Below, piece by piece: positions 3,606 through 60,850 of a stretch of DNA of 64,000 nucleotides (positions within the stretch are counted from its first letter, which is position 1; every line of letters starts with the position of its first letter). Both the position numbers and the translations under genes were made by a program. Origin of the DNA: Hexactinellida sp. DTS-2022 (taxonomy: Eukaryota > Porifera > Hexactinellida). The notes below the pieces were generated by a model, which did not search any database, was not told the origin of the DNA, and saw only the letters and a program-made list of their open reading frames with translations. Location of the stretch: the NCBI GenBank assembly GCA_028753945.1, contig JAPNXP010000001.1:16234501-16298500 (forward strand), in the 5' to 3' direction.

Positions 3606-3871
3606 ATTAGTTGCATATATTAAAAAAGACTAGGCGCTAGCGCCTAAGGTACAAGGCGCCCGCGCCTAAGCTACTAGGCGCTAGCGCCTAGTACGAATAG
3701 GAAAGTATGATACCGCAAACAACAATGTATTTATTGCGATTTACAACGAAGATTATAGGCTCTCTTGCTTTCAATAGTAAGCGAAATTTTTGCGATTACT
3801 TATTTTGGTAATATTTCAAATTCTTTAGATATTTGTAATAAATACTAGTAATAATATATATCTGATAGCAC

Positions 3872-6181
3872 ATGATGCGACGTATGACAAAAATTAACTG
3901 TCGAGACATGTTAATTCAGGTTTGCGATCAATTCCACAGAATCACAGGAGAAAGTGTTGGTTTAACATACATCTGGGATGGCAGCCTTAATATTTTAGGT
4001 CCAGAGCAATTTCGAGGAACTATTGAAACAAATAAAGATGCAGTTTGGCGTGGTTTAACTTTTCAACACAGCCTAGAACTTCGGGACGCTAAACCGCTTC
4101 AAGATGAGGATATGTTAAATATACTACGGACTAACATTCTATCATGTAACCAGGGAAAACTCCGAAAAATTATTTCATGGGCTACCAAAAGAACAGCAGG
4201 TTAGTAAGAATAATTACGAACACTCTTTCAAAAGTTATATCATTGTTTATACTTTTATACATGTAGGACGTTGTAAAAATATTTGGGGGACAGAAAAATA
4301 CAGGCCCTCTTGGTGGCCAAATGATATTCCATTTGTGTGCATATCGAAGAATACAGGAAAGTTTGGAATTACAAAAAGCATTCTTATAAGAATAGTCGAA
4401 GCATACAAGCAATATTTAGGTATTCATACTTCAATAAATGAAATTGTTACAAGTACACCCAAAAAAAGAAAGTCTAGCAAATTATTTGCTAGACCTGTTA
4501 GTAAAAGTATAAAAATCGATGACAGCATGTCAGCGTCCAATAATTCTTTTTTTGTTGGTATAATGGATTCCCCTGAACGTCTGCAAATTAATACATCCAA
4601 TTTTCTTTACTCCACTTCACCCCTCATTTCTCACAATGATTTACACGAGTCCACCACTTCAAACCAAGTATTGGCTCTATCCATTAAAACTAGATGTTTA
4701 GAGGAATTAGCTAAACCCATGGAAATGCTTACAGATAACATAATTTTCGCTTATTGCGTAAGTTCTATTATCATAAATATATATCTTGATCAATTGTTCC
4801 AGGAATAGTTGTTTTTAACCATGATATATTTATCTAAATAGAAACTCCTTAAGAAAAAATACCCAGCTGTTAATGGACTACAAGATACCATATTATGTCA
4901 GGTAATTTCAATTATAATACATACTTACGTAATACATAGAGTTCCCTCTAAGGAATTTTTTTCAGTAACCCCCCGAAAAAAGTTGTGTGTTTATCAAGGT
5001 CCCGAAAATTAGAGGGTATCAAGGCCACTAATTTGATAGATATACTTTTATAGTATAAAATTCGATTATCTGTTTGTTTGTTTGTACGGATTGTATGAAA
5101 GTGATCAGGGAATAGAAACCGCATTTATAATTGAGATAGAAACTAACATCCAATTCTTAAATTCGGAAAAGCAAGTATGCTGATTCCGAATTGGCATTTA
5201 CAAATTTAAAATATGAATGGTTCTGTCTAAGTGAAATTTAGTTCAAATAGAACAATTTTCAAGTGCACTTAGACTGCGGTAGTTATCTTAAGTGGACTAA
5301 GCCCAAGTGCGAATGGAATCTAACCTTTCATGGCTTCTAATCCTAATTAATATGAATGTTTGGCCTCCCAGATTTTGGCTAAACCCCCCCATCAGAAGTC
5401 CCATCCCCTAAAATTAGAGGAAACACTGCTTACATATACACGTATGAATCATGGTTGATCACTTTATGCTACATATTTTACTGCTAAGAACACAATATAG
5501 TATTCGAATTGTCAATATGAAGTTTTACATAAGCCTATCATAACAATTGTATATTAATGCATTTTAATATGTTCTTAGAAAAAGAAGTTTAAAAAGATGG
5601 TAGGGAAACAAACCACTCTCCAGATCCATTATACTGGTAAAAATCACTGGGTTTGCTCAAATTATGACAATGAAAATGGAAGGGTGCTCTTATATGATTC
5701 ACTATACAATAAAACTACTACAATGGAGCTTGATGTTCAACTTGCTCAACTATATGGTACTGATACTATGCAATTGGACGTAATTGTTCCTCGACTTCAA
5801 CGTCAAAAAGGATTTTCTGACTGTGCGCTTTTTGCTTTGGCAACAGCTACATGCATTGCAGAAGGAATAGATCCTGTAACACAAACCTGGGATCAAAAAG
5901 AAATGAGACAGCACTGCAAACAATGCATTCAAAAGGAACAGATTTCTCTATTTCCAGCAACTACTCGTGGTCTACGTACAGGAAAGCTTCCACAACCTCA
6001 TAAATTTTCAATAGATCTAGTATGTGATTGTATTCTCCCAGAATATGCGTTCATCTCAGAAGAAAATACAATTACGCGTGTTGTACAATGTGACAATTGT
6101 AACTTTTGGTTCCATAATCACTGTTACGGTCTATTAAATGAATCTCTTAGTAGCAGTTTCTTGTGTCGATCCTGTAAATGA
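3872..6181 (+). CDS. Transposon-borne Ulp1-like cysteine protease with C-terminal PHD finger (4 exons)
   Basis: Exons at 3872-4199, 4267-4757, 4842-4901 and 5579-6181 join with consistent phases (GT-AG: GTTAGT, GTAAGT, GTAATT donors) into a 493-aa protein. The start ATG has an in-frame TAG two codons upstream. Exon 2 carries a PKKRK nuclear-localisation motif. Exon 3 encodes KKKYPAVNGLQDTILCQ, the lead-in to the protease. The Ulp1/C48 fold shows H316 (KNHWV), D333 (LLYDS), Q369 and C375 (QKGFSDC), so the catalytic set is complete. Residues about 442-492 form a C4HC3 PHD-type zinc finger (CDC..CDNC..HNHC..CRSC). Family role: removal of SUMO or a related ubiquitin-like protein; PHD fingers read chromatin. 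In the transposon it may counter SUMO-based silencing or modify the transposase, which is inference. AATAAA lies at 6326-6331. The intron 4902-5578 holds repeat sequence. Confidence 0.85.
4902..5578 (+). other. Intron 3 of the Ulp1-PHD gene, contains interspersed repeat
   Basis: The 677-bp intron runs from the GTAATT donor to ATATGTTCTTAG. Its part 5040-5170 is an inverted copy of the repeat tail (aaatgcggtttct...tacaatccg...(caaa)n) found elsewhere in the window next to zinc-finger genes and CA microsatellites. No coding signal. Confidence 0.55.
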
Positions 6182-6358
6182 ATTGTAGTCCTTGTTGATC
6201 ATTTCTTTTTGATCAATTATTTGTAGTAAATTCATTATTTTGATGTTTTAGGCAACATATTACACAATTTCTACTACGTATATTTATTATTCATTAACAA
6301 TAAGATATTACTATATGCGATTATAAATAAAGTAGTTGTTAATAGAGTGATAAGATAT

Positions 6359-9300
6359 CTAAATTTTATCAGATTTCTTCATATTCCAACACGCTAAGAA
6401 ATATCGCGTATTGAAGAAAACATTATCATATCTCATATAAGCCACTTGTGTAGAGATACGTCTTAGAACAGAAAATAACTGTTCACAAGATTGAGAGTTA
6501 ATGTTTCGGACTTCAGATGTTTCATATGTTTTCATTGAAAAGATTGGATCACAGCGATGATTTCTGTTGTGAAATCGGTCAACCAAAAAAGTTGTCTTGC
6601 TGAACAATCCTGGATCCCTAAAAGAAGAATAGAATGGCATTTAGTTATTTAATAAGACGAATGTAATAAGTAGAATAAGAGCAAGTACAATATCCTAAAA
6701 CTGATAGTATATTAAATACCTCATTAAGCAGGTTGTGCAAAGGTTACATGCATTATCGTAAATTATAATTCTTGGTGGAACTGTGAATTTTCTCAATAAG
6801 ATAGAATTCACCATGATAGTAGATTCATGGGATGTCATAATTTCAAACCCATAACAATGTTGGTGTTGACATGTCATCATTAACAGTCCTGGAGAAAATC
6901 TTTTGTGTTTCGGGTAAATCTTTGTACATTTAGGTAAATTTTCGGAACATTTGCCTTCATACTGTGGTATCCTACAAAAAATTGTTAAAGCGATGTCAAC
7001 AAGTTTACCCCTGGAATATAGCAACTTGCCTATAATTTTTCTGAAGTGCTGGAAAGTAACTAAATATATCTAATTCAGACGAGGAAGCTTCTTCAACTAA
7101 CTTTCGTGATGGATAGTTTATAAGATGGGTAATTTTCTTCAAAATTCTTAGTAGAAGATGAGCAACATCAGTTTGTAAAGTGATAGTTCCATTTAGTGCA
7201 TCTATCTCTGGGCTAATAGAGTTAAATAATAATTCTAGATTGTTCACCCTGCTGTATAGATCCTTTAAGCAATCGATTTTGTTTGATAGTCCGAGTGATA
7301 ATTCAGATACCATTTTTCTCTGAACTCGAGAAAGTGCAGAAAATCTGAATATGGCAGTTAGAGGTTCAGGACGGGCCAGTAATTTTAGGACTTTACGCAC
7401 TTTAGGTAACTCCGGATCCACAATTGTTAAAGACCCGCGAATTTGAGAAGAAAAAGTTATGAAGTGTATAAGTTCAGATATCTGTAAATCAGCTAACAAT
7501 GTTTCAAGTCTAGAGGTGCTTAGACCCAATTCTGCATATTCAATAAGTACGTCACGTAAATGACTATTCCCAATAAAAACGCGTTCAGAAAATAATATAA
7601 TGGGATATTTTTGTTCTCGATCAATATGATTTGGTAAATCTGGTAAGGATTTAGTTGTACCCATCGCAATACCATCCAAGATAATGATAGATGGCTGATT
7701 TGTACATGTAAGACAAGTAAAATTTTCATCATAGTTAATATTGACTAGCCTGAGGTAACAATTCCATGCTTGTTGAAAGATATGATATTGGTACTTTGAA
7801 TCAAGTCCAATTCTGGTCAGTTTGTTATTTTTTGCCCTATTTGATTAGAAGGTTATTAATATCAGATTAAATTAACATACAATTCTGGACAAGTTGGCGG
7901 AGACCTTACAGAAACTAAAAATATGTTAACTTATTCGAGTAGCCTTCTCTACACTAGATACCAAGACTAATTAGTGATTACTAATTACACTTAATTAACT
8001 AACCTTAAAAAACTATAAAGAGGATTTCTTGACACCGTCATGAGCTCACCATACTCAATAAGTAGGCCATAATGAACAAAGTATTTGTTATTCAAATTCA
8101 ACAAGAGCCATTTCTGACCTTCAAATACTTCTCTGCAATGACAGCTTCCGGTGCAAACAGAACTATATACTATAATTATTACAAAATAAATAAGATAATA
8201 TCAGAGCATCATGGATTGAAAAGAGTACGTATATCTTACCAGAATAGTGAAAATGAATTTCAATAAGAAAAATTTACCTTTTTGTTCTTTGAGATGACGG
8301 ATATTATTCTCTAGATATAAGACAATCCCAGTGTTTTCTAACTGCAAATTAAAATATGTATGTTCGAAACCAAACCGACATTTTTGATCTAGACGTTCTG
8401 GGTAGAGGTCGACTGGCATCAGAATACCTTCGGATAATTGATGATTATATACCTGGAGAAGAGTTTGATTTAACTTAAATGGAATAGGAAGGGTTGAAAT
8501 AGATTCAGCAGATTTAGTAATTGATGGAGCACTCAGAGGCAAAAGGCTTTCGGGAAGGTTCTGTAAAATTGATTTAAATTTGCATGTTTTTTCACAAACT
8601 TCACAACACCATTTATTCTCTCGTAGAAGATAGGTATGAATATCCTTAACAGTTGGAATCAATATGATGTGATTAGTGTCTACTATGTAACATGATGTGT
8701 TTTGAATAACATTATGATGCACTGTTTCAAGTGTTATAAAACAGATACATTGATCATATGCCAATGAGTGAATACAATTTGCAAGCAGACAAGAATTGCA
8801 AACTTGTGTGGTCATATTCAGCACAATGAATGTCTTTGTCAAGGATATCTTTCCTAAAAAGCAAAAGAAACTTTAACATGTCGGATATAAGCACACCGGT
8901 GTAGTAGCCCAGATTAACCCCACACGAGTATATACTCGGGTATAATCTGGGCTACGACAGATTATACCCGGGTATATTAGAGGAGGGGGGTATAATCTGG
9001 GCTACTACACCGGTTATAAGAACATATCGGATATAAAAACATTATGTTGGACATTAAGTGCAATCCCGACGATGTGCTTAGAACCGGTGTCCACTGTATA
9101 GGACCTTTGGGCTAGGTCGGCTAGGACTCATGATGAGTAGGACCTTTCGGGCAACTTGTATTATTGTTAATAGAAGATATTAACTTTCGTCTCAAGAAAT
9201 AATTGGTAGGAACATATCCCCACAAATAGGGTTGCAAAACATCAAATTTGACCCGGATAATCCGGGTTTCGAGCCATTTGTCCGGTGTCCGAGTTTGAAA

Positions 9301-10115
9301 CAATTTTGTCGGGGTTTTGATAAAATTGCTTTCTTGTGAAGCAATGTGGACAATATTAAATAATTAACTAATGTTATAGGTCAGTAACGCTAAAAATTTG
9401 CTGGCTCGCATACGCTAGCACGGTTGTATTATTTAGATTACATGCTAAAAGAAAATAATTTGTGAAGAACTGGTTCAATGCTTTAATAAATACAAATGAA
9501 ATTCCCTTTTATAGGTTTTAAGACCTTAAGTTATGAAAGTCATTAGATCAGCTTTTGACATACAATAATGTACATCCCCAACATCATTGTTTTCCTCCCA
9601 CTTTCAGAAACCTCAAAAGGCCATTGTACTTTAGATACAGTTTTATTAATATTGACTAATATTAATAGAGTAAATTTTGTCCGGGTTTGGCTCTAAGAAA
9701 ATCTGGCAACCCTACCTACAAACCGTACTGGAGGCTACGCATATGCTTAAAATTTAATCAACGAAATAAAATTGCGATAGAACTAACCTTGATTTTCTTT
9801 GTAATGTGGAAAAAGGAGGAGGTTGTGTTCAGCAAGATAAAAGAAATAGGCGCTCTTTAAAAGAAGGCTTATGTATTGGTCAAGAATTGAGACTTCTAGT
9901 GTAGTTAAATCCAAGTCATGATCAAAGTTATCATGACCAATAGATGGTGATACTTCAGTCAATTTTAATTCATGTGAATAATTACTTGGCAGTTGATCAG
10001 ATAACGAAATAGCTACTGACTGTAAACTTGAATATATCTTGTCTTCTAAATCAGATACCTTGATTCTTTTCTCAGTAGGATAAACTGTTGAGTGTGAAGG
10101 ATATTTCTCAGCCAT
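6359..10115 (-). CDS. KDZ-type transposase (6 exons, 802 aa)
   Basis: Minus-strand exons 10115-9788, 8853-8278, 8169-8004, 7836-7009, 6971-6720 and 6617-6359 join with every phase in agreement and no stop. Introns are GT-AG, one only 37 bp (7008-6972). The N-terminal third has Cys clusters (CNSCLLANC, CCEVCEKTC) like the CxC modules of KDZ transposases. Exon 3 gives CTGSCHCREVFEGQKWLLLN and exon 4 CLTC..PSIIILDGIAMG. The expected RNase H-fold catalytic residues are D411 (ILDG), D705 (IIYDNACN) and E762 (NSQSCEQLF). The conserved DRFHNRNHRC and AYMRYDNVF..TRYFLA blocks also fit the family. Nuclear enzyme that cuts and joins transposon ends. The 3' end faces the Ulp1 gene with 177 bp between stops; AATAAA lies on this strand at 6288-6283. 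Intron 1 is 934 bp and holds nested MITEs. Intact, so possibly active. Confidence 0.88.
8876..9096. repeat. Two nested MITEs in intron 1 of the KDZ transposase
   Basis: The outer element has a gtcggatataagcac...gtgtccactg sequence ending at a TA and recurs in truncated form at 16389 and 39382. Into it a 110-bp palindromic element (8900-9009, TGTAGTAGCCCAGATTA at both ends) has inserted at CCGG, which is duplicated (8896-8899 and 9010-9013). The uninterrupted site (cacaccggttataag) is present in both paralogous copies. Confidence 0.8.
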
Positions 10116-10337
10116 ACTTTTCTTTCAATCTAACAAAATGTATTGTTATTGATAAAACATTAAATAAAAACAAATGGATAAATATTTGTACATACTTATT
10201 TAAGAATTACAAGGTTCTTGCATTTGATTATAGGCGCTAGCGCCTAGTAATATAGGCGCTAGCGCCTTGTAGTGTAGGCGCTAGCGCCTTGTACAATAGG
10301 CGCTAGCGCCTACACTTTTTTAATAGCTCATTAGTTG

Positions 10338-11195: not shown

Positions 11196-11704
11196 TTATG
11201 CCCTCTGTTTTCTGTAAGTAACATGCAATGGTATGTTTTCCCGTAAGTGGATGAGAGCATGTCTCTTGAGGTGACTCGCCGTAGAAAACTTCTTATTGCA
11301 CGTGATACAGGTGTAGAAATTCTTCACGATGTGAGAACTCATGTGAACCGACAGATTATAAGCTGTATAAAACATCTTATTACATAGGAAGCATTCGTAA
11401 GACATCTTTCTCGTGTGAGTAAGGACATGTCTCGTGCAATTGGATTTAACTGAGAACTTCTTAATACAGAGAGTACAAGGGAAAGGCCTTTCACCGGTGT
11501 GAGTACGTTTGTGAATCGTCAAACTACAGGAGTTAGTAAACCTTCTCTCACAGAAAGTACATTTATACGGTTTCTCTCTTGTATGAGTGAGGACATGTCT
11601 ATTCAGAGAATTTTTATCCGAGAACTTCTTAATACAGAGAGTACAAGGGAAAGGCCTCTCATCAGTGTCAGTTCGTTTGTGCATGGTCAAACTATTATTT
11701 TGAG

Positions 11705-14700
11705 ATGGATGTGAAGTTAGCAGCAAGTCCAGCAGCAAAAAGTGAGCACGATGCATCTGGTTATAACTCCACTCTACCATAGGCTGTGGGGCTAAAATTA
11801 ATACCACAGCTCTATCCCCGATGTAGGTTTATGAAATTTCAATTTTTAGTCTCTAACACCCAAAACCACTTGACAGTGACAGTGCAAAAATTACCCTTTT
11901 TCACTAGATAACCCACATCCAATTTGAGTGAGCACGATACACCTGGTTATAACTCCACTATACCATTGCTTGGCGGGCTGAAATTTATACCACAGCTTTA
12001 TCCCCGATGTAGGTTTACGCTATTTCAATTTTTAGCCTCTAACATCCAAAACCACTTGACAGTGACAGTGCAAAAATTACCCTTTTTCACTGGATAATTA
12101 TCCCACATCCAATTTGAGTGAGCACGATGCATCTGGTTATAACTACACTATACCATTGCTTGGCGGGCTGAAATTTATACCACAGCTCTATCCCCGATGT
12201 AGGTTTACGCTATTTCAATTTTTAGTCTCTAACATCCAAAACCACTTGACAGTGACAGTGCAAAAATGACCCATTTTCACTAGATAATTATCCCACATCC
12301 AAATTGAGTGAGCACGATGCATCTGGTTATAACTCCACTCTACTATAGGCTGGCGGGCTGAAATTGATGCCACAGCTCTATTTCCGATGTAGGTTTATAC
12401 TATTTCAAAAAACATGTATCAATTTTCATCCCATAATGACTAATCATATTTACGAGTGTGAAGTTGGCGCAGTATTCAACTGAGCACAGATCAAATCCAA
12501 ATTTGAGGCCCTTCCCACAGTTGGATTTGGCCAAAAATTACACCCCTTAAAGGGGAGATACGGACATTTTTGATTCTGGATAAAAATCTTATAATTTTTA
12601 TTTTTTGTATTTATTTAAAAAAATTATGTCTGAGCACTAAAAAAAATTATTTTTGACAACAATTTTTCGAAAATGAAGTTAAAACTTTGCAAACTTTGCA
12701 TACATGTTTGTGAGTAAGGGACGTTTCTTATTTCAAAATATTTCAAAAAAATATCAATATTCCTATGAGATACAATTGAAATAATTTTGCACTTATTCAT
12801 TGATCACGTCAGTAGACTCAGTACCCTTATAATACATTTTCAACTGAGCATGCTTCAAGTTATAATTTTAGACACTTCTCATTGTTGGAACGGGACAAAA
12901 ATAGTGTCATTCAATGGAGGAGACGTTTGTATTTCAAAAATATATATATTGATTACAATTGTTTTTGCACTTAATGATCCATTAAAAAATTCGAATAATT
13001 TAGAAAACATGCTTGGCTTTATTTTTAGTAAACCTGAAAATGTTGATTTTCCAATTATTAATGCATTTGAAAAAGATACAAAATTATTTTATAGTAGAAA
13101 TTGTTTCGGCGAGTTTTATATAGATAGAGAAGAGTTAAATAGCATAGTTACATAGATGATGATGGTAAATATCGATTGAATATAGAATGGACTAGTCTAA
13201 TTGCTAAAAGTTTTTCAGAAATAAATTCAATTTGTGTTTTAAAGTTTAAACATTATTGGTTCAAAAAAATGTGATAGTAGGAAATTTAAATCCTCGTTTT
13301 TCCAAACTTGGGCAGTATGTAAATTCTCTAATTGTTTTTCTGTAACTTTTTCAATTGAGAATGATTTTAATTCAATAGATTATAATGCTTAGCTATCGGC
13401 TATCATTCCAATGGTGATATTTCGTTAGAACATGCAAATAATAAAACTACTCATGCACGTCACATTAATGCATGTGAAAGGAAAAAAATGGGGTAACAAT
13501 TAATTAATATTTCAGCAAGTAATATTTTTAATAGACAATTATATTGGAAAAGAATATCGAGGCATTCAAAAGGGGTAATTTCTCTAATCTAAAATCCCGA
13601 CAAACTTTGTGAAGAATTAAATCAGACATGAACTCTATAGATAGGTCTCCAATGACGATATAATAGATATTTTGGAAACTGAAATACTTTTCCGTTTAGA
13701 GTTACCTGACGATCAAATACCGGTTACATTAAATATATGGTACAAGATCCATTTATTATTAATGTATATACCTTAAAAAAGATAGAAGTTTTTAAATTCT
13801 TAAAAAATAAAAATATTGTACTGAATATCGACGCCACGAGTTCTATTATTAAAGTGCCATCAATATGTGCAAAATCGATATACTATTATGCTCTTACTTT
13901 ACAGCACCCTGAATTTTGCACGAGCCCTGTACCTGTTGCAGAAATGATAAGTAGTGCCCAGGGATTCTCCGAAATAACTCCTTTTTTAAATAAATGGATT
14001 TTAACTAGTAAGCTAATTCTCCATAAGATATAAATATTGACCAAGTTGAAATGGACTATAGTTAACCATTAATGCATAGTACATGTTTAGCATTCAATAA
14101 ACAAAGTATATCCATATATATTTATCTAAATGCTGGGAAATTGTAAACTGTAAAACCAATGCAAATTTTAAATTTACCAACTGTATTGCATCTCCTTCGA
14201 CACACATAATCCAAGTATTAGTTACAAATTAGCTAAGAATTATAAAATTGATAAACGACTCAAACAGTTAGTGCTACATGCATGCGGTACTATGGTACAA
14301 AACAAATTCAAACATCGACGAAATAAATATTGTTTTTGCATCCCTGTGTGTTTTAATGACAACTGAATCAATGTTACCCCCAGTTACTAAGAGTTTGTTA
14401 GATTTAGAAAGTATAGTTAAAGACGATAACCCTGAAAATTTTGAAAAGGATACCTATATAAAAACTTCCCCTTTTGGGAGACATTTTGAGGGGATCTACA
14501 GTGAAATCTGTGCTAAAGTTTTAAAACTAAAACAATTGACATCTAACAAAAATTATGTTATTACCCACAAATCCTAGAATATATCTTAACTTATTATATG
14601 CCATTGCTCTCCCTCATCTTACATACAAAAGTTATTCTGTATTAGGTATTGTCTGTGAGGTATTGTGTATTATTAATACATCAGTTGTCTTTGTATGAAA

Positions 14701-16200
14701 TAGTATTTTTAAAAATAATAATAATTTAGAGTTTTGAATGCAGTATAAATGTTGAGCAGAAAATACGAGAACTAGGCTGTATATAATTGACTATGGCAAA
14801 GACAAATTGGAAACGCTAAACTATAATAAATCATTATCGAATTATTACCAAATAGATGAATACTTTAGCACATGTGCTTGTTCACTCGATCAATATAGAA
14901 ATATATAATCTGAAGTAAATAGATGTTAAACTTTGCCAAGCTCTATCTCATAGGAATATTGATATTTTTTTGAAATATTTTGAAATAAGAAACGTCCCTT
15001 ACTCACAAACATGTATGCAAAGTTTGCAAAGTTTTAACTTCATTTTCGAAAAATTGTTGTCAAAAATAATTTTTTTTAGTGCTCAGACATAATTTTTAAA
15101 ATAAATACAAAAAATAAAAATTATAAGATTTTTATCCAGAATCAAAAATGTCCGTATCTCCCCTTTAAGGGGTGTAATTTTTGGCCAAATCCAACTGTGG
15201 GAAGGGCCTCAAATTTGGATTTGATCTGTGCTCAGTTGAATACTGCGCCAACTTCACACTCGTAAATATGATTAGTCATTATGGGATGAAAATTGATACA
15301 TGTTTTTTGAAATAGTATAAACCTACATCGGAAATAGAGCTGTGGCATCAATTTCAGCCCGCCAGCCTATAGTAGAGTGTAGCTATAACCAGATGCATCG
15401 TGCTCACTCAAATTGGATGTGGGATAATTATCCAGTGAAAAAGGGTAATTTTTGCACTGTCACTGTCAAGTGGTTTTGGATGTTAGAGGCTAAAAATTGA
15501 AATAGCGTAAACCTACATCGGGGATAAAGCTGTGGTATAAATTTCAGCCCGCCAAGCAATGGTATAGTGTAGCTATAACCAGATGCATCGTGCTCACTCA
15601 ATTTGGATGTGGGATAATTATCTAGTGAAAAAGGGTAATTTTTGCATTGTCACTGTCAAGTGGTTTTGGATGTTAGAGACTAAAAATTGAAATAGCGTAA
15701 ACCTACATCGGGGATAGAGCTGTGGTATAAATTTCAGCCCGCCAAGCAATGGTATAGTGTAGCTATAACCAGATGCATCGTGCTCACTCAAATTGGATGT
15801 GGGATAATTATCCAGTGAAAAAGGGTAATTTTTGCACTGTCACTGTCAAGTGGTTTTGGATGTTAGAGGCTAAAAATTGAAATAGCGTAAACCTACATCG
15901 GGGATAAAGCTGTGGTATAAATTTCAGCCCGCCAAGCAATGGTATAGTGTAGCTATAACCAGATGCATCGTGCTCACTCAATTTGGATGTGGGTTATCTA
16001 GTGAAAAAGGGTAATTTTTGCACTGTCACTGTCAAGTGGTTTTGGGTGTTAGAGACTAAAAATTGAAATTTCATAAACCTACATCGGGGATAGAGCTGTG
16101 GTATTAATTTTAGCCCCACAGCCTATGGTAGAGTGGAGTTATAACCAGATGCATCGTGCTCACTTTTTGCTGCTGGACTTGCTGCTAACTTCACATCCAT
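11705..16200. mobile_element. Mutator-like (MULE) element with foldback-type long inverted repeats
   Basis: The 4496-bp element is flanked by the perfect 9-bp duplication TATTTTGAG (11696-11704, 16201-16209). The empty site is at 39188-39196 in the paralogous gene. Both ends start ATGGATGTGAAGTTAGCAGC. The inverted arms exceed 1 kb (about 11705-12770 and 14947-16200) and consist largely of tandem units of about 190 bp beginning GTGAGCACGATGCAT: four in the left arm, five in the right. The 9-bp duplication is typical of Mutator elements. Long arms built of tandem repeats recall the Drosophila foldback/NOF group, also a Mutator branch. The core is AT-rich and carries decayed transposase pieces. 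Confidence 0.88.
12787..14577 (+). pseudogene. Decayed transposase of the Mutator-like element
   Basis: Three open pieces remain at 12787-13155, 13737-14033 and 14278-14577, separated by stops and frame changes. The middle piece reads NIVLNIDATSSIIKVPS, then YYYALTLQHPE and PVAEMISSAQGFSEITPFLNKW. This pattern (a DAT motif followed by a YYYAL strand and PVAEMIS) resembles the RNase H-like core of Mutator/NOF-type transposases, the Asp being a likely catalytic residue. I recognise it by motif only. The coding capacity is broken, so the element would need a transposase supplied elsewhere. Confidence 0.6.
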
Positions 16201-18087: not shown

Positions 18088-19188
18088 CTATTCTGTATCG
18101 CAGAAAACAAATTTGGATGCCCTCTGTTTTTCCCGTAAGTGGATGAGAGCATGTCTCTTGAGGTGACTCGCCGTAGAAAACTTCTTATTGCACGTGATAC
18201 AGGTGTATAATTTCTCCACAATGTGAGAACTCATGTGAACCGATAGAATAGAAGCTGTATGAAACATCTTATTACATAGGAAACATTCGTAGGACCTCTC
18301 TCTGGTGTGAGTAAGGACATGTCTCGATAGAACGGTTTTAGATGAGAACTTCTTAATACAGAGAGTACATGGGAAAGGCCTTTCACCGGTGTGAGTACGT
18401 TTGTGAATCGTCAAGTGGGAGGTGCAAGTAAACATTTTCTCACATAAAGTACATTTATACGGTTTCTCTCCGGTGTGAGTAAGGACATGTTTGGTCAGAG
18501 AGGTTTTATATGAGAACTTCTTAATACAGAGAGTACAAGGGTATGGCCTTTCACCGGTGTGAGTACGTTTGTGAACCGTCAAACTGGAGGAGTATGCAAA
18601 CTTTTTCTCACATAAAGTACACTTATACGGTTTCTCTCCGGTGTGAGTAAGGACATGTCTGTTAAGAGAGCTTTCATCTGAGAACTTCTTAATACAGAGA
18701 GTACAAGGGAAAGGCTTCTCACCAGTATGAGTATGGACGTGTTTATTCAGATATCTTTTATCTGAGAACTGCTTTATACATAAAGTACATGGGAAAGGCC
18801 TCTTATTAGTATGAGTATGGAGATGTCTGTTCAGAGAGCTTTTAAATGAGAACTTCTTTATACAGAAAGTACACGGGAAAGGCCTCTTATTAGTATGAGT
18901 ATGGACATGTCTGTTCAGAGAGCTTTTAACTGAGAACTTCTTAATACAGAAAGTACATGGGAACGGCCTCTCACCAGTGTGAGTAAGGACATGTCTGTTA
19001 AGATTACCTTTTTGTGAGAACTTCTTAACACAGAAAGTACATGGGAAAGGCCTCTTACCAGTATGAGTAAGGACATGTTTGTTTAGAGAGCTTTTATCTG
19101 AGAACTTCTTCATACAGAGAGTACATGGGAAAGGCCTCTTACTAGTATGAGTTCGTTTGTGTATCGTCAAACTATTAATTTGAGCCAT
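18088..19188 (-). CDS. C2H2 zinc-finger protein, 12 fingers (366 aa)
   Basis: An uninterrupted minus-strand frame from ATG at 19188. It starts [14 protein letters not shown], the second half of a finger lacking its cysteines, then has 12 complete C-x2-C...H-x3-H fingers joined by TGERPF/TGEKPY-type linkers. Fingers 1-6 are mostly [16 protein letters not shown] types; 7 and 9 are [16 protein letters not shown]; the last two are the array-wide CFLCNKMF and CITCNKKF fingers, followed by a tail ending FVFCDTE. Tandem linkers of this kind mark DNA-binding nuclear proteins. This is the largest and apparently intact member here. The half finger at the start shows the 5' end was lost or an upstream exon is used; a TTTCCTTAG acceptor-like site lies about 20 bp upstream. 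Targets unknown. Confidence 0.85.
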
Positions 19189-22576: not shown

Positions 22577-25088
22577 GGGTTCTCACCAGGATTTTTGTTG
22601 TAAGGGTACATGAGAGTGAGATATGAAGTGATAGAATATGGTGTCATCGATGTTACTTTTTAAAATAATTATGTAATGTGTATAAGTTTGTCTCCACTAG
22701 CTTTCACTGCACTACTTTTAGCTAACTTGCGCTATGCTACCAAAAAAGAAGATGAAGACTGCAGATGGCCAGCAAAAGCTTAGCTTTAGTCTAGAACAGA
22801 TTTCACCTGTTCCAGTAACTAGTATGAGCTCTACTGCTACAGCAGACTGCACACCTGGCTCAAGACAACCGCTGGAAGAATCAGAGTGTAACATTTTGAC
22901 GAATACGACAACGCGTAGGGGGAATGTAGTTTCCTGGCGAGCCTTTGCTGACAGAAAGTGGCGTGATAAGCATCCCTGGCTTCAGCTAAAAGAGGATGGG
23001 ATCTATTGTCTCTACTGCTCCCATGATACATTGAAAACTAGGAGCAAAACACAGGTTTTTGTAACTGAACCGTTCACTGGAAACAGACCCGACAATCTCC
23101 TACAACACGAAGGCTGTGCTGCATATGAAGCATGTGCTATTGCCTAACATGAGGGAATAGCACGGGTAGCAACAAAGCAGACAGTAATGGAGGTCATTGA
23201 AAATGTTAGCATACTTTACACTTGATGAGGTTGCTTTTCAGGATGCCCTATGATGCATATACTTTCTGGCAAAAAAGGAAATACCACACACAACTTACTT
23301 TGCAGATCTAAAGGAGCTATGCATTCAGCTTGGTAATAGAACATTGCCAGATCTTGTCAAGGGGAAGAATGCAAATTGTCAATCCGAAAGTATCATGGCT
23401 GAAATGGTTCAGGCAATTGATGTTACTCTGTATTGGAAGATATCAAGAAATCTCCATATTATTCATTAATCATGGATGAGTCAACTGATATCTCAGTGAC
23501 CAAACAACTTGGATTGTGTGTTCAATACCTTGGTTCGGATGCTGAGGTACAAACAAGAAATCTGAAATTGCTTGAAGTGACTCAGGGAACTTCTGATGTT
23601 ATAACAGATTCGATTATAAATTACCTGACCTGCAAAGCACCTATAGTACTAAATCTTTCTCAGCTTGCAGGTGGTGCTTGTGATGGAGCCGCCGTCATGG
23701 TTGGTGCCCACTCTGGCGTGATAACTCGTTTGAAAGAACAGGTACCTAATTTCATTGCTACCCACTGTGTAACTCACCGACTTTCCCCTGTCACCTACAA
23801 TGCACCTGAGAAGTCACGTCTGGTGAAAAGATTCCAACATACACTGAGTAAAGTGTATTTTTATTTCTCCAGAAGCACCGTCAGAACAGCAGCACTAAGG
23901 GAAATTGAACAGGCTTTAAATGATCCTGAGCTAAAGATGGAACGAACAACTGAAACAAGATGGCTATCTCATCGAAGTGCTGTAATGCATTAACTTAGCC
24001 ATTAAGACGTTGCCTTAAGTCCGTAATGCTCACACTTGAACAAGATGCTGCTGAAGGAATGCAATAGCTCTGGGACTTTCACTGCAAATGTCTAAGCCTA
24101 AATTTGTGGCCACATTACTTTTGCTATCAGACATTCTGTCTATCCTTGGAAACCTTTCGAGAGTATTTCAGGTAGCCACGCTTAACTTACTAGATGTGGA
24201 CGTCATCTTACAGGACAGTTTGTCTGCTCTAGAAGTTGTGAAAAAGGATCCCCTACAGAGTGGATTCATGAGGAACCTTGAAACAACACTACAATATATT
24301 GATATTTCTCATCCACTTATACCTGGTGACTTTGTAGGAGAAGCTCAAACCTATATTGATGCTTTGATCTCTAATATCAAAGACAGGTTCCCACAAGCCA
24401 GGACACTTAGATTATTTGGCTACCTTGACTCAAGGAATGTGAATAAGGCTTCTGTACTAGCTATTACTGAATTGGAGAACTTATGAGCATTGACGGTTTG
24501 AAATTGTGGCAAGAATTCATAGTCTACAGAAGTTTTGCTCAGCGATATCAAGATATTTCCGCGGTAGTGAAACAAGTTTTGGGGATTGCGAACAAAGAAG
24601 CAATGGCTTGTGCATTTCCTCTTATCTCTGACTTACTGGCTCGACTTGCTGTACTCCCAGCATCCAGTGCGCATGTGAAACGAATGTTTTCAACAATGAA
24701 AAGGGTTAAAACTGCTCAACGGAACAGATTGAAAACAACTACACTCGATAATCTTATTCGCATCTCTACTGAAGGCCCTCCAGTAAAAGAGTGGGATTCT
24801 AAACTTGCAATGAGAAGGTGGGAGTCTTGGGGGAAGAGGCGCCTCTCAACATCCAATTTCAGCTAGAACTATACAACATAAATAAGTAGTTTGTCATTGT
24901 TTGTAGAATCTTTAGAATCACTAGAGTGTACTGTAAATACTGTATTTATTTGTCAATTTATTTAATGAAACCTTCAAATAATAATATTGACTCAAAGGGT
25001 ACATGCCCACTTATAACATGTGAATGAAGGGTAGAATAGCTTTCAAGAAGGGCATGCATCTTTTGATAGAGGCATAGCGAGAACCCTG
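22577..25088. mobile_element. hAT transposon, 2.5 kb
   Basis: Ends CAGGGTTCTC on both sides (10-bp perfect inverted repeat), with the 8-bp duplication ATAGTACA at 22569-22576 and 25089-25096. These are hAT hallmarks. Inside lies a plus-strand transposase reading frame with stops and frameshifts (22734-24866). Full length but not autonomous any more. Confidence 0.92.
22734..24866 (+). pseudogene. hAT transposase pseudogene (ZNF862/TTF-zinc-finger type)
   Basis: Pieces in order: an N-terminal part with SWRAFADRKWRDKHPW and CLYC...H, resembling a TTF/BED-type zinc finger (22734-23147); a broken stretch; a catalytic piece 23433-23993 with LIMDESTDISVTKQLGLCVQ and GGACDGAAVMVGAHSGV, then HCVTHRLS and TRWLSHRSAV; piece 24088-24486; and 24483-24866 with the hAT dimerisation end (LPASSAHVKRMFSTMKRVKT, RNRL). 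The order and motifs match animal hAT transposases related to ZNF862-like proteins. Stops at about 23145 and 23990 and at least two frameshifts (about 23435, 24480) disable it. No sign of domestication. Confidence 0.88.
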
Positions 25089-49608: not shown

Positions 49609-50590
49609 ATGGCTCTTGCTCTTTTTTTGCTTGAAGATGAATATCTTGCGCTTAGTTTAACCAATCAAAGAGTCTTGAGAGATAGGAGGAATCCACTGGA
49701 TTCATACAATGATATCGAATTTATAAGCCGTTACAGGATAACTCGAGTTTTCTTTTGCAGCTACACGATAAAATTGTGGAATCTCTTCATCGGAGTACTG
49801 CAAGATCACATTCAATACCAACTACCACCCAACTAGGTGTGGCGTTACAATTTATGGCAACCGGTACATTTCAGACTGTAATCGCAACTGCCCATGGTAT
49901 ATCTCAGCCTTCTGTATCTAGATGTATTGCAGCGGCAACAGATGCACTTTCCAGGGTGGCTAAGGATTATATACAATTTCCTAACCAGATGAAACAAACC
50001 CAACAACAGGATGCGTTTTACAGAAGAGCGGATTTCCTTTGGTGCTTGGATGTATAGATGGTACGCATGTATCCATCGTTGCACCTTCAAATAACGAAGA
50101 GATTTATGTAAATCGAAAGAATACACATTCGATTAACATACAAGCTATATGTGATAGCGAATTAAAATTCATTAATGTGGTAGCAAAGTGGCCTGGAAGC
50201 ACACATGATGCATTTATATGGCGAATGTCTGGAATCAATCAGAGAATTTCCAGCGGTGATGTCCCAATTGTAAATGGATGGTTTTTAAGAGATAGCGGGT
50301 ATCCATTACGTCCTAATCTACTCACTCCAATATTGTCTCCTGAAACCCCCAGCGAAAGGAGATATAACCGTTCATTCCTGAGGACCCGTAAAACCATCGA
50401 ATGTGCTTTTGGCCTTTGGAAAAGTCGATGGAGATCTATGGACAAGACCGAAGGATCACTATGCTACAGTCCAGAAAGAGTTTGTCGCTTAGTTGTAGCA
50501 ACGATGGTTTTACATAATATATGCATCAACATGGCTTGCAATGGGAAATTGAATTGCCTGTTGGAGCTGAAGAGCATGAAGTGGCCTTAG
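49609..50590 (+). pseudogene. Harbinger transposase pseudogene (HARBI1-like)
   Basis: An N-terminal helix-turn-helix part (GVALQFMATGTFQTVIATAH, SQPSVSRCI) is followed by the DDE nuclease: GCIDGTHVSI (first Asp), FLRDSGYPLRPNLLTP (second Asp), then RTRKTIECAFGLWKSRWR (Glu), all as in HARBI1-type proteins. Frame shifts at about 49755 and at 50025-50040 (GFPLVLGCID is split between frames) disable it. The C-terminal end at 50590 is a premature stop. Length before decay would be normal for the family (about 330-350 aa). Confidence 0.9.
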
Positions 50591-56038: not shown

Positions 56039-56687
56039 TCATGGAGAATTTGTCGGCTTTATATAAAACACGGAGATCGTCAAATGCTGCTTAATTGATT
56101 GAAGGATAATTTGACTTTGTGAATTAGCAGAATTCAGAGAAATGTAGCAATTGGTAAAGATATTTTTAACTGAGTTTTGACTGGATGAGACCTTAGGATG
56201 CAATACTTTTCCATCATCTGACAATAACTTATACAAGTTAACGTTCAAAGGATAATTATAGGTACATATTGCTTCTACAAATAGACCAAAGTTCTCGACA
56301 TCAAATATAGTTTGTCTAACTATTGGGTATAGGTAAGCAGCAGAAGAAGACCCCAGTGGTATTAAACGTACAATGGTAGAAAATATTTTCATTAAACTCG
56401 AAACCATCATTGAAAATACAGTTGTAGGGGGGGGGGTCATTTGGAATGTCAATTGAACACAGAATCTTACCTCCCTTATAGGATGCATTACTGCGGATAT
56501 GGACTTCGTCCATTTGAAGGATTACATGACGTTCTCGGGGACTGAACTTAGATGTTATTTCCTTAAGTATTTGGAAATACTCGCAACCTATACCAAACGT
56601 GTTCTTAATAGCAAGTAAATCACGCTCGTGTGGTAAACTAAGCAATTCGATGAATGAATAAATCGGTAATAAGCCGGTGAAATCCAA
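56039..56687 (-). pseudogene. P-element transposase relic
   Basis: 56687-56316 reads ERHVILQMDEVHIRSNASYK and GGKILCS, the P-element/THAP9-type RNase H-like core with a probable catalytic Asp in MDEVH. The next frame (56488-56039) continues VSSLMKIFSTIVRLIP and FGLFVEAICTYNYPLNVNLY, LLSDDGKVLHP. The switch of frame falls at a homopolymer of G (about 56430), so slippage of one base explains it. N-terminal THAP and C-terminal parts are missing. It lies where the 3' end of the next zinc-finger gene has been lost. Confidence 0.8.
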
Positions 56688-58319: not shown

Positions 58320-60850
58320 TTTAATTATAATAATTATTATAATAATAGAACAGCATTTAAATTACGCTTCTTACAAGTGTCTCGAAGCGCTTACAAATTA
58401 GTACACCTTGAAATATAAGTAGTAATGCATTAAGTGTAAAAAGTAAATGTACAGTCAAAGGTTGTTTCTCAAGCTGATTATGAGATGTGGATTAGGTAGG
58501 CAGACAAGATCCATCTTCACGGAAGTAGTGAGTTTTTAGCCGAGATTTAAACAAGGCCACAGTCTCCGAGCTTCTAACCATATGTGGTAAAGAATTCCAT
58601 ATTCTTGGAGCAAAGAAGGAGAAGGTCCTCTCACCATAAGTTTTAAGTTTAGACCTTGGTTGGTAGAGGTTAATACAAGTGGTGTTTGTGGAACGGAGAT
58701 TTCGTGTATGATAGAGTGGTCTAACCAAGTTACTTAGGTAAACAGGGCAGGTGTTGTTGAGAATGTTGTATACTAGTACACATGTCTTATATTGAATCCT
58801 CTTCTCAATTGGAAGCCAGTGTAATTGCCGAAGTATGGGTGAAATATGTTGTCGTTTCTTCGTGAGAGTTACAATACGTGCCGCTATGTTTTGAATCTTT
58901 TGTAACCGAGCTATCTGACGACTGGGCAAGCCGTACAGTAGTGAGTTACAGTAGTCCAACTTGCTGCTGACAAATGCATGTATCAAACGTTCCGTTGTTT
59001 TAACGTCAAGGTAGTTACAAAGTTTACTAATTCGAGTAATTGACAGAGAAGCGCCACGACAGATATCATTAATGCGGTCTTTAAGTAAGAGGTGTTTGTA
59101 GAACTTAACTCCAAGGTTTTAGATAACGTCAGAGGGTGCAAGTTCATGGCCCTCAAAGACTAGTCTCGGGACTAGAGAATTAGGTTTAAATTTTGATGAG
59201 AAATAAATATAGTTTGTTTTGTCAGGGTTACATTTGAGCATGTTCTTTGTGTACCATGTACTCAGATCACTAAGACATCGCTCCAATCTTCTAGAAAATC
59301 TTCCTTGTTGGACTGCCTAACTGATATATACACTTGATTGTCATCTGCGTATGATGCTGATTGTAATCCGTGAGCATCAATAATGTCTTCAATAGGTGAT
59401 ACATACAAGGAAAATAGCAATGGTCCCAGCACAGAACCCTGTGGCACTCCGGACTTAAGAATTTTGGGGGATGAACGGGTTCTGTTAATACATGTGATCT
59501 GGTATCTTTCTGATAGGTATGATTCAAACCATGCGAGGACAGAACCAGACATTCCATACTTAGATTGTAGTCGATTAAGTAATATCTGATGATCTACAGT
59601 GTCAAAGGCGCTGCTAAGGTCTACGAGAACTAGGGCTACCTCAAGGCCTTCATCTAGTGTGGATCCAATGTCATTCATCACCTTTATAAGCGCCGTTTCC
59701 GTGGAATGGTGTTTGCGGTAAGCCGATTGGAAACGGGGATAGAGGTTGTTATTAGAGAGATAAGTTCCTATTTGTGTTAGAACAACTCTCTCAATCAATT
59801 TAGAAAGGAAAGGGAGGTTCGAAATCGGGCGGTAGTTCGTTAGTGTGTCAGCATCTAGTGATATCTTTTTAAGGACTGGGACGACTAAAGACTCTTTAAG
59901 TATGCTAGGGAATATGGCATCAGACAGTGATTTGTTAACAATACGAGAAATATAGGTAAGAAGAGAGGATGAGAGAGATTTTAAGAGCGAAGTGGGTAAG
60001 GGGTCAAGGCCACAAATCTTTGTCGACGAGTCTTCAATTGCCTCTAATAGATGGTCGTCATCAATCAATATGAATGTACTAATTGTTGAGTGACAAGTTT
60101 GAGAAAGAGAGACAGTTAAGTTCTGTGGGCTAGCTTTCAGGAGAGTTTCACGGATACAAATAATCTTTGATTCGAAGAATTCAGAGAATTTAGTTACAAG
60201 GTCAGCAAGTCTAACATATTTTGGTAGAACAAGCTTTTTTCGGAGAGTCACCAGGTTGTCAACCAACTGAAAAAGCTGTCTTGTATCGCATTGTTGGAAC
60301 TTGTCACGATAGAATTCACGTTTAGCTAGATCCAGTGATGTTTTGTATTCGCGTCTTTTAACGTCAAACAGCTGAATATCAATGATATGGAGAGTCTTCT
60401 TACTTCTTCTCTCTAACTTGCGTAGGTATCGTTTAGTTTCTCTCAGATTATCGGTGTACCATGGTGCATGCGGACGGGATCCTACAGTTCTATTTATAAT
60501 CGGTGCATGGTCATCTAGGATAGTACTTAGATGAGAATTGAATTTCTTTACCAGCTCCTCTACCGAATCGACGTCAGAGCCAAAATCTAGCCGTTCGACA
60601 TCAGCAAGAAAACTATTGAGATCGATGTCTTTAATTTTCCTGAAGGAGATGTGAAACTTTGTGAACTTAGGTCGAGGAAAGTCAATATTGCAGACAATAC
60701 AGAAATGGTTCGAAGGCACATCACTAATAGTATTCAATGATTTAATGATACTCAGTTCAGAACATCTGGTGATAACAACATCTAGGGTATGGTTAGATTT
60801 ATGTGTTGGCCCTCGATTATGCGGTTCTAAACCGAATGTAGACAATATAG
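58320..60850 (-). mobile_element. LINE retrotransposon (CR1/L2-like), 5' truncated
   Basis: Minus-strand element beginning inside the endonuclease domain at about 60850 and ending near 58320 at a short (ATT/ATA)n tail (58321-58350 on the plus strand), as in L2/CR1-type elements that end in short repeats instead of poly(A). Confidence 0.8.
58492..60845 (-). pseudogene. LINE ORF2 remnant: endonuclease end, reverse transcriptase, C-terminus
   Basis: 60845-59262 holds the end of the APE endonuclease (GPTHKSNHTLDVVITR, and SNHF where SDH is usual), a linker, and the RT: NYRPISNLPFLSKLIERV, FQSAYRKHHSTETALI, ALVLVDLSSAFDTVDH (catalytic Asp), GVPQGSVLGPLLFSLYV and SYADDNQVYISV (YADD box). A frameshift near 59270 and a stop near 59119 interrupt the frame before the C-terminal piece 58986-58492 (HAFVSSKLDYCNSLLYGLPS, LHWLPIEKRIQYK). 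CR1/L2/Rex-like LINEs show this RT and C-terminal pattern. All RT motifs survive, so decay is recent. Confidence 0.9.

Follow-up and report, generated by a model that had tools for sequence, protein, structure and literature searches.

A two-gene KDZ-type transposon of a glass sponge with a candidate NRF1-like end-binding protein

Why a transposon should carry a second intact gene beside its transposase, and why regularly spaced palindromes should stand at both of its ends, is the question raised by an element in the genome of Hexactinellida sp. DTS-2022. The element lies in a stretch of 64,000 nucleotides, referred to here as the window (GenBank assembly GCA_028753945.1, contig JAPNXP010000001.1, positions 16,234,501 to 16,298,500), and the original prediction valued it as a type element of the KDZ (Kyakuja-Dileera-Zisupton, PF18758) group. 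Our analysis points to a different main result, namely that the partner gene, judged by sequence, encodes a DNA-binding protein of the NRF1 type and that the end palindromes are sites of that type. NRF1 is a regulator of mitochondrial and many other animal genes. We consider it highly probable that the locus is a recently mobile two-gene KDZ transposon whose NRF1-like partner acts on the palindromic ends for the transposase. We infer strongly that the NRF1-like protein uses the element's ends, and the comparisons below suggest that a major gene regulator and a transposon share one DNA-reading part.

The partner gene had been predicted to have four exons and a product of 493 amino acids, and its rebuilt frame is indeed open. 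In Pfam the product matches Nrf1_DNA-bind (PF10491) with 32.8 bits (cut-off 23.5), the C48 peptidase family with 25.7 bits (20.7), and PHD with 27 bits (24). At the level of sequence, the partner clearly combines an NRF1-type module for dimerisation and DNA binding with a cysteine-protease domain of the C48 family and with a PHD finger. The single-sequence match spans only residues 83-137, as would suit a short convergent WWP/FWG motif in a protein unrelated to NRF1. However, a profile of 11 NRF1-like modules (from the window, nine loci, and protein P0001 of the glass sponge Oopsacas minuta) spans both NRF1 domains and matches no other sequence in PDB: among 177,635 distinct sequences the sole matches at E 0.01 were two NRF1 sequences, the better one, 8k4l, with E 8.8e-13 over positions 13-152 of 155 and the second with 1.4e-11. 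Alignment of this profile by hhalign with human and host NRF1 covers 147 columns (97.6%, E 2.9e-12), which makes convergence very improbable.

According to the available text of PMC10810270, human NRF1 reads its bases through R206, N242, and R244. The equivalents of R206, W224, P231, and W234 are invariant in all 11 modules; that of N242 is N in five of them, and that of R244 is K in three and R in none, the base-reading residues of family L048, for example, being R, N, and K. The window product has the PF10491 match and both domains without the full set of R206, N242, and R244. Because the base-reading residues differ, the partner may work like NRF1 and is not filed as an NRF1 orthologue. In the C-terminal part, H316, Q369, and C375 are invariant in the three aligned proteins (window, P0001, and P0004), and D333 is replaced by E in P0004; together we take these four to be the catalytic residues of the C48 domain. 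Eight Cys/His positions of the PHD finger are likewise invariant in comparison with P0001 and P0004.

The palindromes of both window arrays are spaced by 22 bp (base pairs). Their core, GCGCTAGCGC, recurs in L033, L040, and L042 (L numbers denote loci and families). The human NRF1 consensus, GCGCATGCGC, forms the core in L048, L050/L053, L052, L054, and L062, and the sister families with this exact consensus also share the 2-bp centre of the NRF1 site. Elsewhere the core is CCGCATGCGG (L049/L057), TCGCATGCGA (L016-L018), or GTGCATGCAC (L019); L059 and L051 have GCACATGTGC or the core CACATGTG, L060 has GAGCATGCTC, and the repeats of L020 are decayed. Across families the spacing is mostly 21-24 bp; L019 has 26 bp, and in L060 both 18 and 22 bp occur. 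The DNA compared comprised 31 distinct NRF1-like places, 22 of which have repeated palindromes, with single exact copies at L033 and L046. Since it was the ends that led to the window, L033, L040, and L042, and the arrays that led to L062, these places provide no test of the link between palindromes and NRF1-like genes. Beyond the 31 places there are two partial copies, L034 with an array at one end and L035 with none. Genome-wide, single GCGCATGCGC sites number 379, as compared with 26 for the reversed pattern, and pairs of them 18-26 bp apart number 150 versus 0, the spacing being 22 or 23 bp among the pairs listed; pairs of GCGCTAGCGC number 40 versus 0. Another site lies within 50 bp of 40 of the 50 forward GCGCATGCGC sites listed from the total of 379.

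Half-sites were tabulated outward from the centre for 13 families, leaving aside L020, L044-L047, and the places with no palindrome. Position 2, the one read by R206 in NRF1, is G in all 13. Position 1 is T in 11 families, and positions 3 and 4 are C and G, respectively, again in 11 each; position 5 is C in 10 of 13, although the base tabulated there for L051 lacks the backing of its repeats (these support the core CACATGTG only, and the entered 10-mer has no exact match). Such a pattern would fit a conserved binding mode with shifting specificity in families that share ancestry. K at the R244 position goes with GCGCATGCGC in four of four families, as against one of nine families without K (Fisher p 0.007, a value that is too small because the families are related), so that a residue-to-site code is at present only a lead.

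The arrays were also used on their own to choose a further place, C1:17396183-17402056 (L062), which had no Nrf1_DNA-bind or KDZ match in the genome profile searches and was selected solely by its paired GCGCATGCGC arrays. Fetched as two pieces, it is flanked by the duplication GGGAAATA; its CAT-type end adjoins an NRF1-like gene whose variable positions encode N and K, and its GAG-type end adjoins transposase exons matching residues 110-357, the fetched pieces excluding the catalytic part. This single array-chosen place is such an element. The result bears on the proposal that the palindromes are read by the cysteine-rich modules of the transposase, or serve as hairpins in cleavage, the likeness of the partner to NRF1 being incidental. 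The CxC module of KDZ proteins has been proposed, in the accessible text of PMC12062965, to recognise DNA or chromatin proteins, and a weak CxC4 match is present here. Yet this proposal does not account for sites that equal the consensus of the partner's own family with the same 2-bp centre, nor for L062 turning out to be an element, and we regard it as improbable.

The two genes are also paired across the genome. With E values of up to 1, the Nrf1_DNA-bind profile has at least 61 matches, among them the ordinary NRF1 gene of the host (C1:12370499, E 3.0e-50); the KDZ profile, with E values of up to 0.1, has at least 25, the split KDZ exons of the window not being counted. An NRF1-type match lies within 2.5 kb of 20 of the 25 KDZ matches, in convergent orientation in all 20 cases, with a chance expectation of about 0.003 per match.

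The original prediction of an element bounded by an exact 8-bp duplication was verified by a finder that requires a pair of unlike ends, CAT-type and GAG-type, together with an exact 8-bp duplication; its sole match in the window is this element. The finder was positive at 11 of 20 other fetched loci (L033, L036, L037, L039-L042, L045, and L048-L050) and negative at nine (L034, L035, L038, L043, L044, L046, L047, L051, and L052). A second finder that allows any end pairing returned the same 12 exact cases, all of them with one CAT-type and one GAG-type end. The predicted palindromes at the ends stand, whereas the description of the outermost bases as similar inverted ends, in the sense of a decayed inverted repeat, does not: the unlike ends, found at all 12 loci with exact duplications, are a rule of the group and not a sign of decay. 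An extra pair reported by the second finder at L046 has a mismatched duplication and was taken as spurious. The orientation of ends to genes is variable: the CAT end flanks the NRF1-like gene in the window, L033, L045, L048, L049, L050, and L062, but the transposase gene in L040, L042, and L044; exchange or inversion between arrays is a possible cause.

Elements with the same kind of ends and their own 8-bp duplications were found in L033 and further loci. L033, on contig 5, is 99.64% identical to the window element (24 substitutions in 6618 compared bases) and is flanked by its own duplication, CCGTACGA. Its arrays are shorter by exactly 22 and 66 bp, that is, by whole units, and the other gaps are of 1, 1, and 8 bp; its transposase frame is open, and its NRF1-like frame has a stop at codon 479, near the end of the PHD part. 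Recent mobility of the element is supported by this near-identical copy at another site. Six further loci (L036-L039, L041, and L043) have the element's ends and no match to either protein at E 1e-4, and look like dependants. The intactness of both genes and their host-like splicing might speak for a host gene pair with chance flanking repeats. Against this stand the duplication, the paired ends, the near-identical copy, the short relatives L036-L039, which share these ends and lack any coding match, and the absence of any finder match in 4000 base-shuffled loci; we give such a chance origin practically no weight. There is good support for the element, a cut-and-paste KDZ-type transposon, and for its gene content.

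How the partner might act can be proposed in some detail. The NRF1-like protein would bind each palindrome as a dimer, its two half-sites being read as in NRF1 and R98 contacting the invariant G of the half-site. The phasing of about two helical turns would line the dimers up along a single face of the helix; the protein-coated ends could recruit or align the transposase, and excision and insertion would then give the 8-bp duplications. Less firmly, since each start codon has an array a short distance upstream, the NRF1-like protein may also control both genes of the element. It may also be, though this is a guess, that the protease and the PHD finger act on SUMO-linked silencing or on chromatin at the ends.

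Several observations weigh against this reading. The base-reading residues of the window copy itself are R, C, and S (N242 to C, R244 to S), its core is GCGCTAGCGC and not GCGCATGCGC, and structure prediction was too weak to contribute. Most of the 61 NRF1-type matches score below the Pfam cut-off, with only 19 above it; of the 25 KDZ matches, only 13 are above theirs, and five (C1:9598075, C15:2969090, C16:350621, C4:1215098, and C14:4455730) have no NRF1-type match within 2.5 kb. One family, L044-L047, has the odd palindrome TTCGACAGTCGAA, and seven of the 31 NRF1-like places (L011-L014, L055, L056, and L058) have no palindrome in the approximately 1.5-2 kb examined upstream. The CxC4 profile of the transposase reaches 18.6 bits, below its cut-off of 26.9.

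It is also conceivable that the host's own NRF1 reads the end arrays and drives both promoters, the NRF1-like protein of the element doing something else. In favour of this, an ordinary NRF1 gene is present in the host, the exact consensus occurs in several families, and NRF1 sites act in promoters according to the available text of PMC10810270. However, the families with the non-consensus CCGCATGCGG, TCGCATGCGA, GTGCATGCAC, CACATGTG, and GCGCTAGCGC each retain an NRF1-like gene of their own, and such drift of the sites is not favoured under one host protein. We consider action by host NRF1 in place of the element's protein rather unlikely, and note that reading of the arrays by the host protein and by the element's own protein are not mutually exclusive.

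The transposase gene, predicted with six exons and 802 amino acids, was recovered with an open frame, and the eight introns of the two rebuilt genes are all GT-AG as foreseen. A second donor after 6702 would yield an alternative product of 808 amino acids. The 802-residue form is favoured, and the gene models are supported, by breaks of tblastn matches in divergent families, which lie at or close to the exon junctions (approximately residues 110, 301, 357, 631-634, and 717). The KDZ assignment held in the profile search (PF18758, 29.2 bits against a cut-off of 26.6, residues 661-781), and the conserved DDE triad of KDZ members was found. As to the candidate catalytic residues D411, D705, and E762, all are present and the first two are invariant in the five aligned transposases, as are C398 and C401; E762, present in the window, P0005, P0006, and P0008, is not invariant because P0007 diverges there. 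A named relative of the transposase is from the jellyfish Rhopilema. Intron 1 contains an inverted-repeat block of about 120 bp with GTAGTAGCCCAGATTA motifs (8895-9014), which looks like a nested short repeat, since resembling text is seen by eye near the start of L016.

Table 1. Parts of the element and its flanks, in window coordinates
Feature	Position	Strand	Basis
Whole KDZ element, 6716 bp	3614..10329		Ends and duplication; copy L033 with own duplication
Left target-site duplication ATTAGTTG	3606..3613		Exact 8-bp match to right copy
Right target-site duplication ATTAGTTG	10330..10337		Exact 8-bp match to left copy
CAT-type end CATATATTAAAAAAG, flank of NRF1-like gene	3614..3628	+	End motif
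GAG-type end GAGCTATTAAAAAAG (inward reading), flank of transposase gene	10315..10329	-	End motif
Left array, three palindromes: 3632-3645, 3654-3667 (variant GCGCCCGCGC), 3676-3689; core GCGCTAGCGC	3632..3689		Sequence
Right array, four AGGCGCTAGCGCCT palindromes starting at 10232, 10254, 10276, 10298	10232..10311		Sequence
NRF1-like gene exon 1, coding for the dimerisation domain and for R98 (human R206) in the recognition helix	3872..4199	+	Gene model, module alignment
NRF1-like gene exon 2: remaining NRF1-type DNA-binding domain (WWPNDIPF) and linker	4267..4757	+	Gene model, Pfam
NRF1-like gene exon 3	4842..4901	+	Gene model
NRF1-like gene exon 4: C48/Ulp1-type protease (H316, D333, Q369, C375) and PHD finger (459-493)	5579..6181	+	Gene model, Pfam
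Transposase gene exon 1	9788..10115	-	Gene model
Transposase gene exon 2	8278..8853	-	Gene model
Transposase gene exon 3, part of CxC4-like stretch	8004..8169	-	Gene model, Pfam
Transposase gene exon 4, with D411	7009..7836	-	Gene model, alignment
Transposase gene exon 5, containing D705; second possible donor after 6702	6720..6971	-	Gene model
Transposase gene exon 6, with E762; stop at end	6359..6617	-	Gene model

The rest of the window contains, on the minus strand, a C2H2 zinc-finger open reading frame at 18088-19188 (Pfam run) and further ones recognised by eye at 11196, 21292, 27258, 31313, 36384, 38688, 54526, and 57073. Other mobile sequences include a fragmented hAT transposon at 22734-24866, with Dimer_Tnp_hAT (E 2.2e-7) in the reading frame at 24483 and a DUF4371 match below the cut-off in that at 23433; a DDE_Tnp_4 transposase reading frame at 50039-50590 (E 2.2e-34), probably Harbinger-like; and a retroelement reverse transcriptase at 59262-60845 (RVT_1, E 2.9e-25). 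A weak TNP-like RNase H match is located at 56316-56687 (21.5 bits, cut-off 24.6). Two arrays of a 190-bp tandem unit, 11741-12408 and 15307-16164, are by eye reverse complements of each other. The Rfam scan of the window gave no match.

Descent of NRF1 from such an element and uptake of NRF1 by the element are both candidate directions of transfer. In the DNA-binding domain each of the 11 modules shares more identical residues with human NRF1 than with host NRF1, which argues against a recent capture from the host's gene, with the reservations that the modules are not independent and that host NRF1 may have drifted; over its whole module L054 has 29 identities to human and 31 to host NRF1. 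Tentatively, and with less than even confidence, we raise the possibility that NRF1 descends from an end-binding protein of a KDZ transposon, so that the dimeric module and the GCGCATGCGC site would both be former transposon parts. If so, protein and site still diversify together in these elements, as a natural record of changing recognition. Because a transcription-factor module is linked here to a transposon system of recent mobility, phylogeny can be used to test where NRF1 originated. The elements also provide about a dozen natural pairs of NRF1-type proteins and sites in which the base read in human NRF1 by the invariant arginine is constant and other half-site bases vary. Moreover, NRF1 consensus sites in this genome often stand in arrays like those of transposon ends, which would offer a ready route for spreading the sites of a regulator.

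All of the named relatives of the partner are from Oopsacas minuta, the search with alignment A1 having covered short proteins only. P0001, named there 'Calcium-responsive transcription factor', is 31% identical over 99% of the 493-residue product, with each Pfam score just under its cut-off (Nrf1_DNA-bind 21.6 bits, cut-off 23.5; C48 18.6, 20.7; PHD 21.5, 24). The C-terminal half of P0004 (ENA) aligns with the protease and PHD parts and keeps the protease H, Q, and C and the eight PHD Cys/His residues; it has no NRF1 match and no Pfam C48 match, a weak SWIM match of 19.4 bits (cut-off 19.6), and PHD at 15.7 bits. A viral-contig search with P0004 found no relative. Among the open-access matches listed there is no report linking KDZ or other transposons to NRF1, most subscription papers being outside this scope, and the word NRF1 occurs 0 times in the main texts of PMC10027918, PMC12062965, and PMC12730594.

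With known KDZ elements the window element shares a KDZ domain above the cut-off, D411 and D705, a multi-exon transposase gene, and the 8-bp duplication, in agreement with the accessible texts on multi-exon KDZ genes (PMC9297572) and on the 8-bp target duplication of Zisupton (PMC12730594). It adds a second gene, with NRF1 module, C48 protease, and PHD finger, and phased NRF1-type palindromes at the ends; in the portions of the KDZ literature covered, the first KDZ and Zisupton papers being outside that scope, neither the second-gene domains nor NRF1-type ends are mentioned. In its general plan the element resembles Spm/En of maize (CACTA), where DNA binding is the task of a protein distinct from the transposase and repeated sites stand close to either end: as stated in the available text of PMC2613891, TnpA recognises the subterminal repeats of Spm, and TnpA and TnpD are both required. 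This likeness is one of working plan only, with no sequence kinship claimed. With NRF1 itself (8k4l, 8k3d), in contrast, the module has its two-domain organisation and the equivalents of R206, W224, P231, and W234 in common; it differs in being encoded by a transposon, in its shorter linkers, in the fusion to a protease and a PHD finger, in the variable equivalents of N242 and R244, and, for the window copy, in the core GCGCTAGCGC, whereas some sister families have a site identical to that of NRF1, down to the same 2-bp centre.

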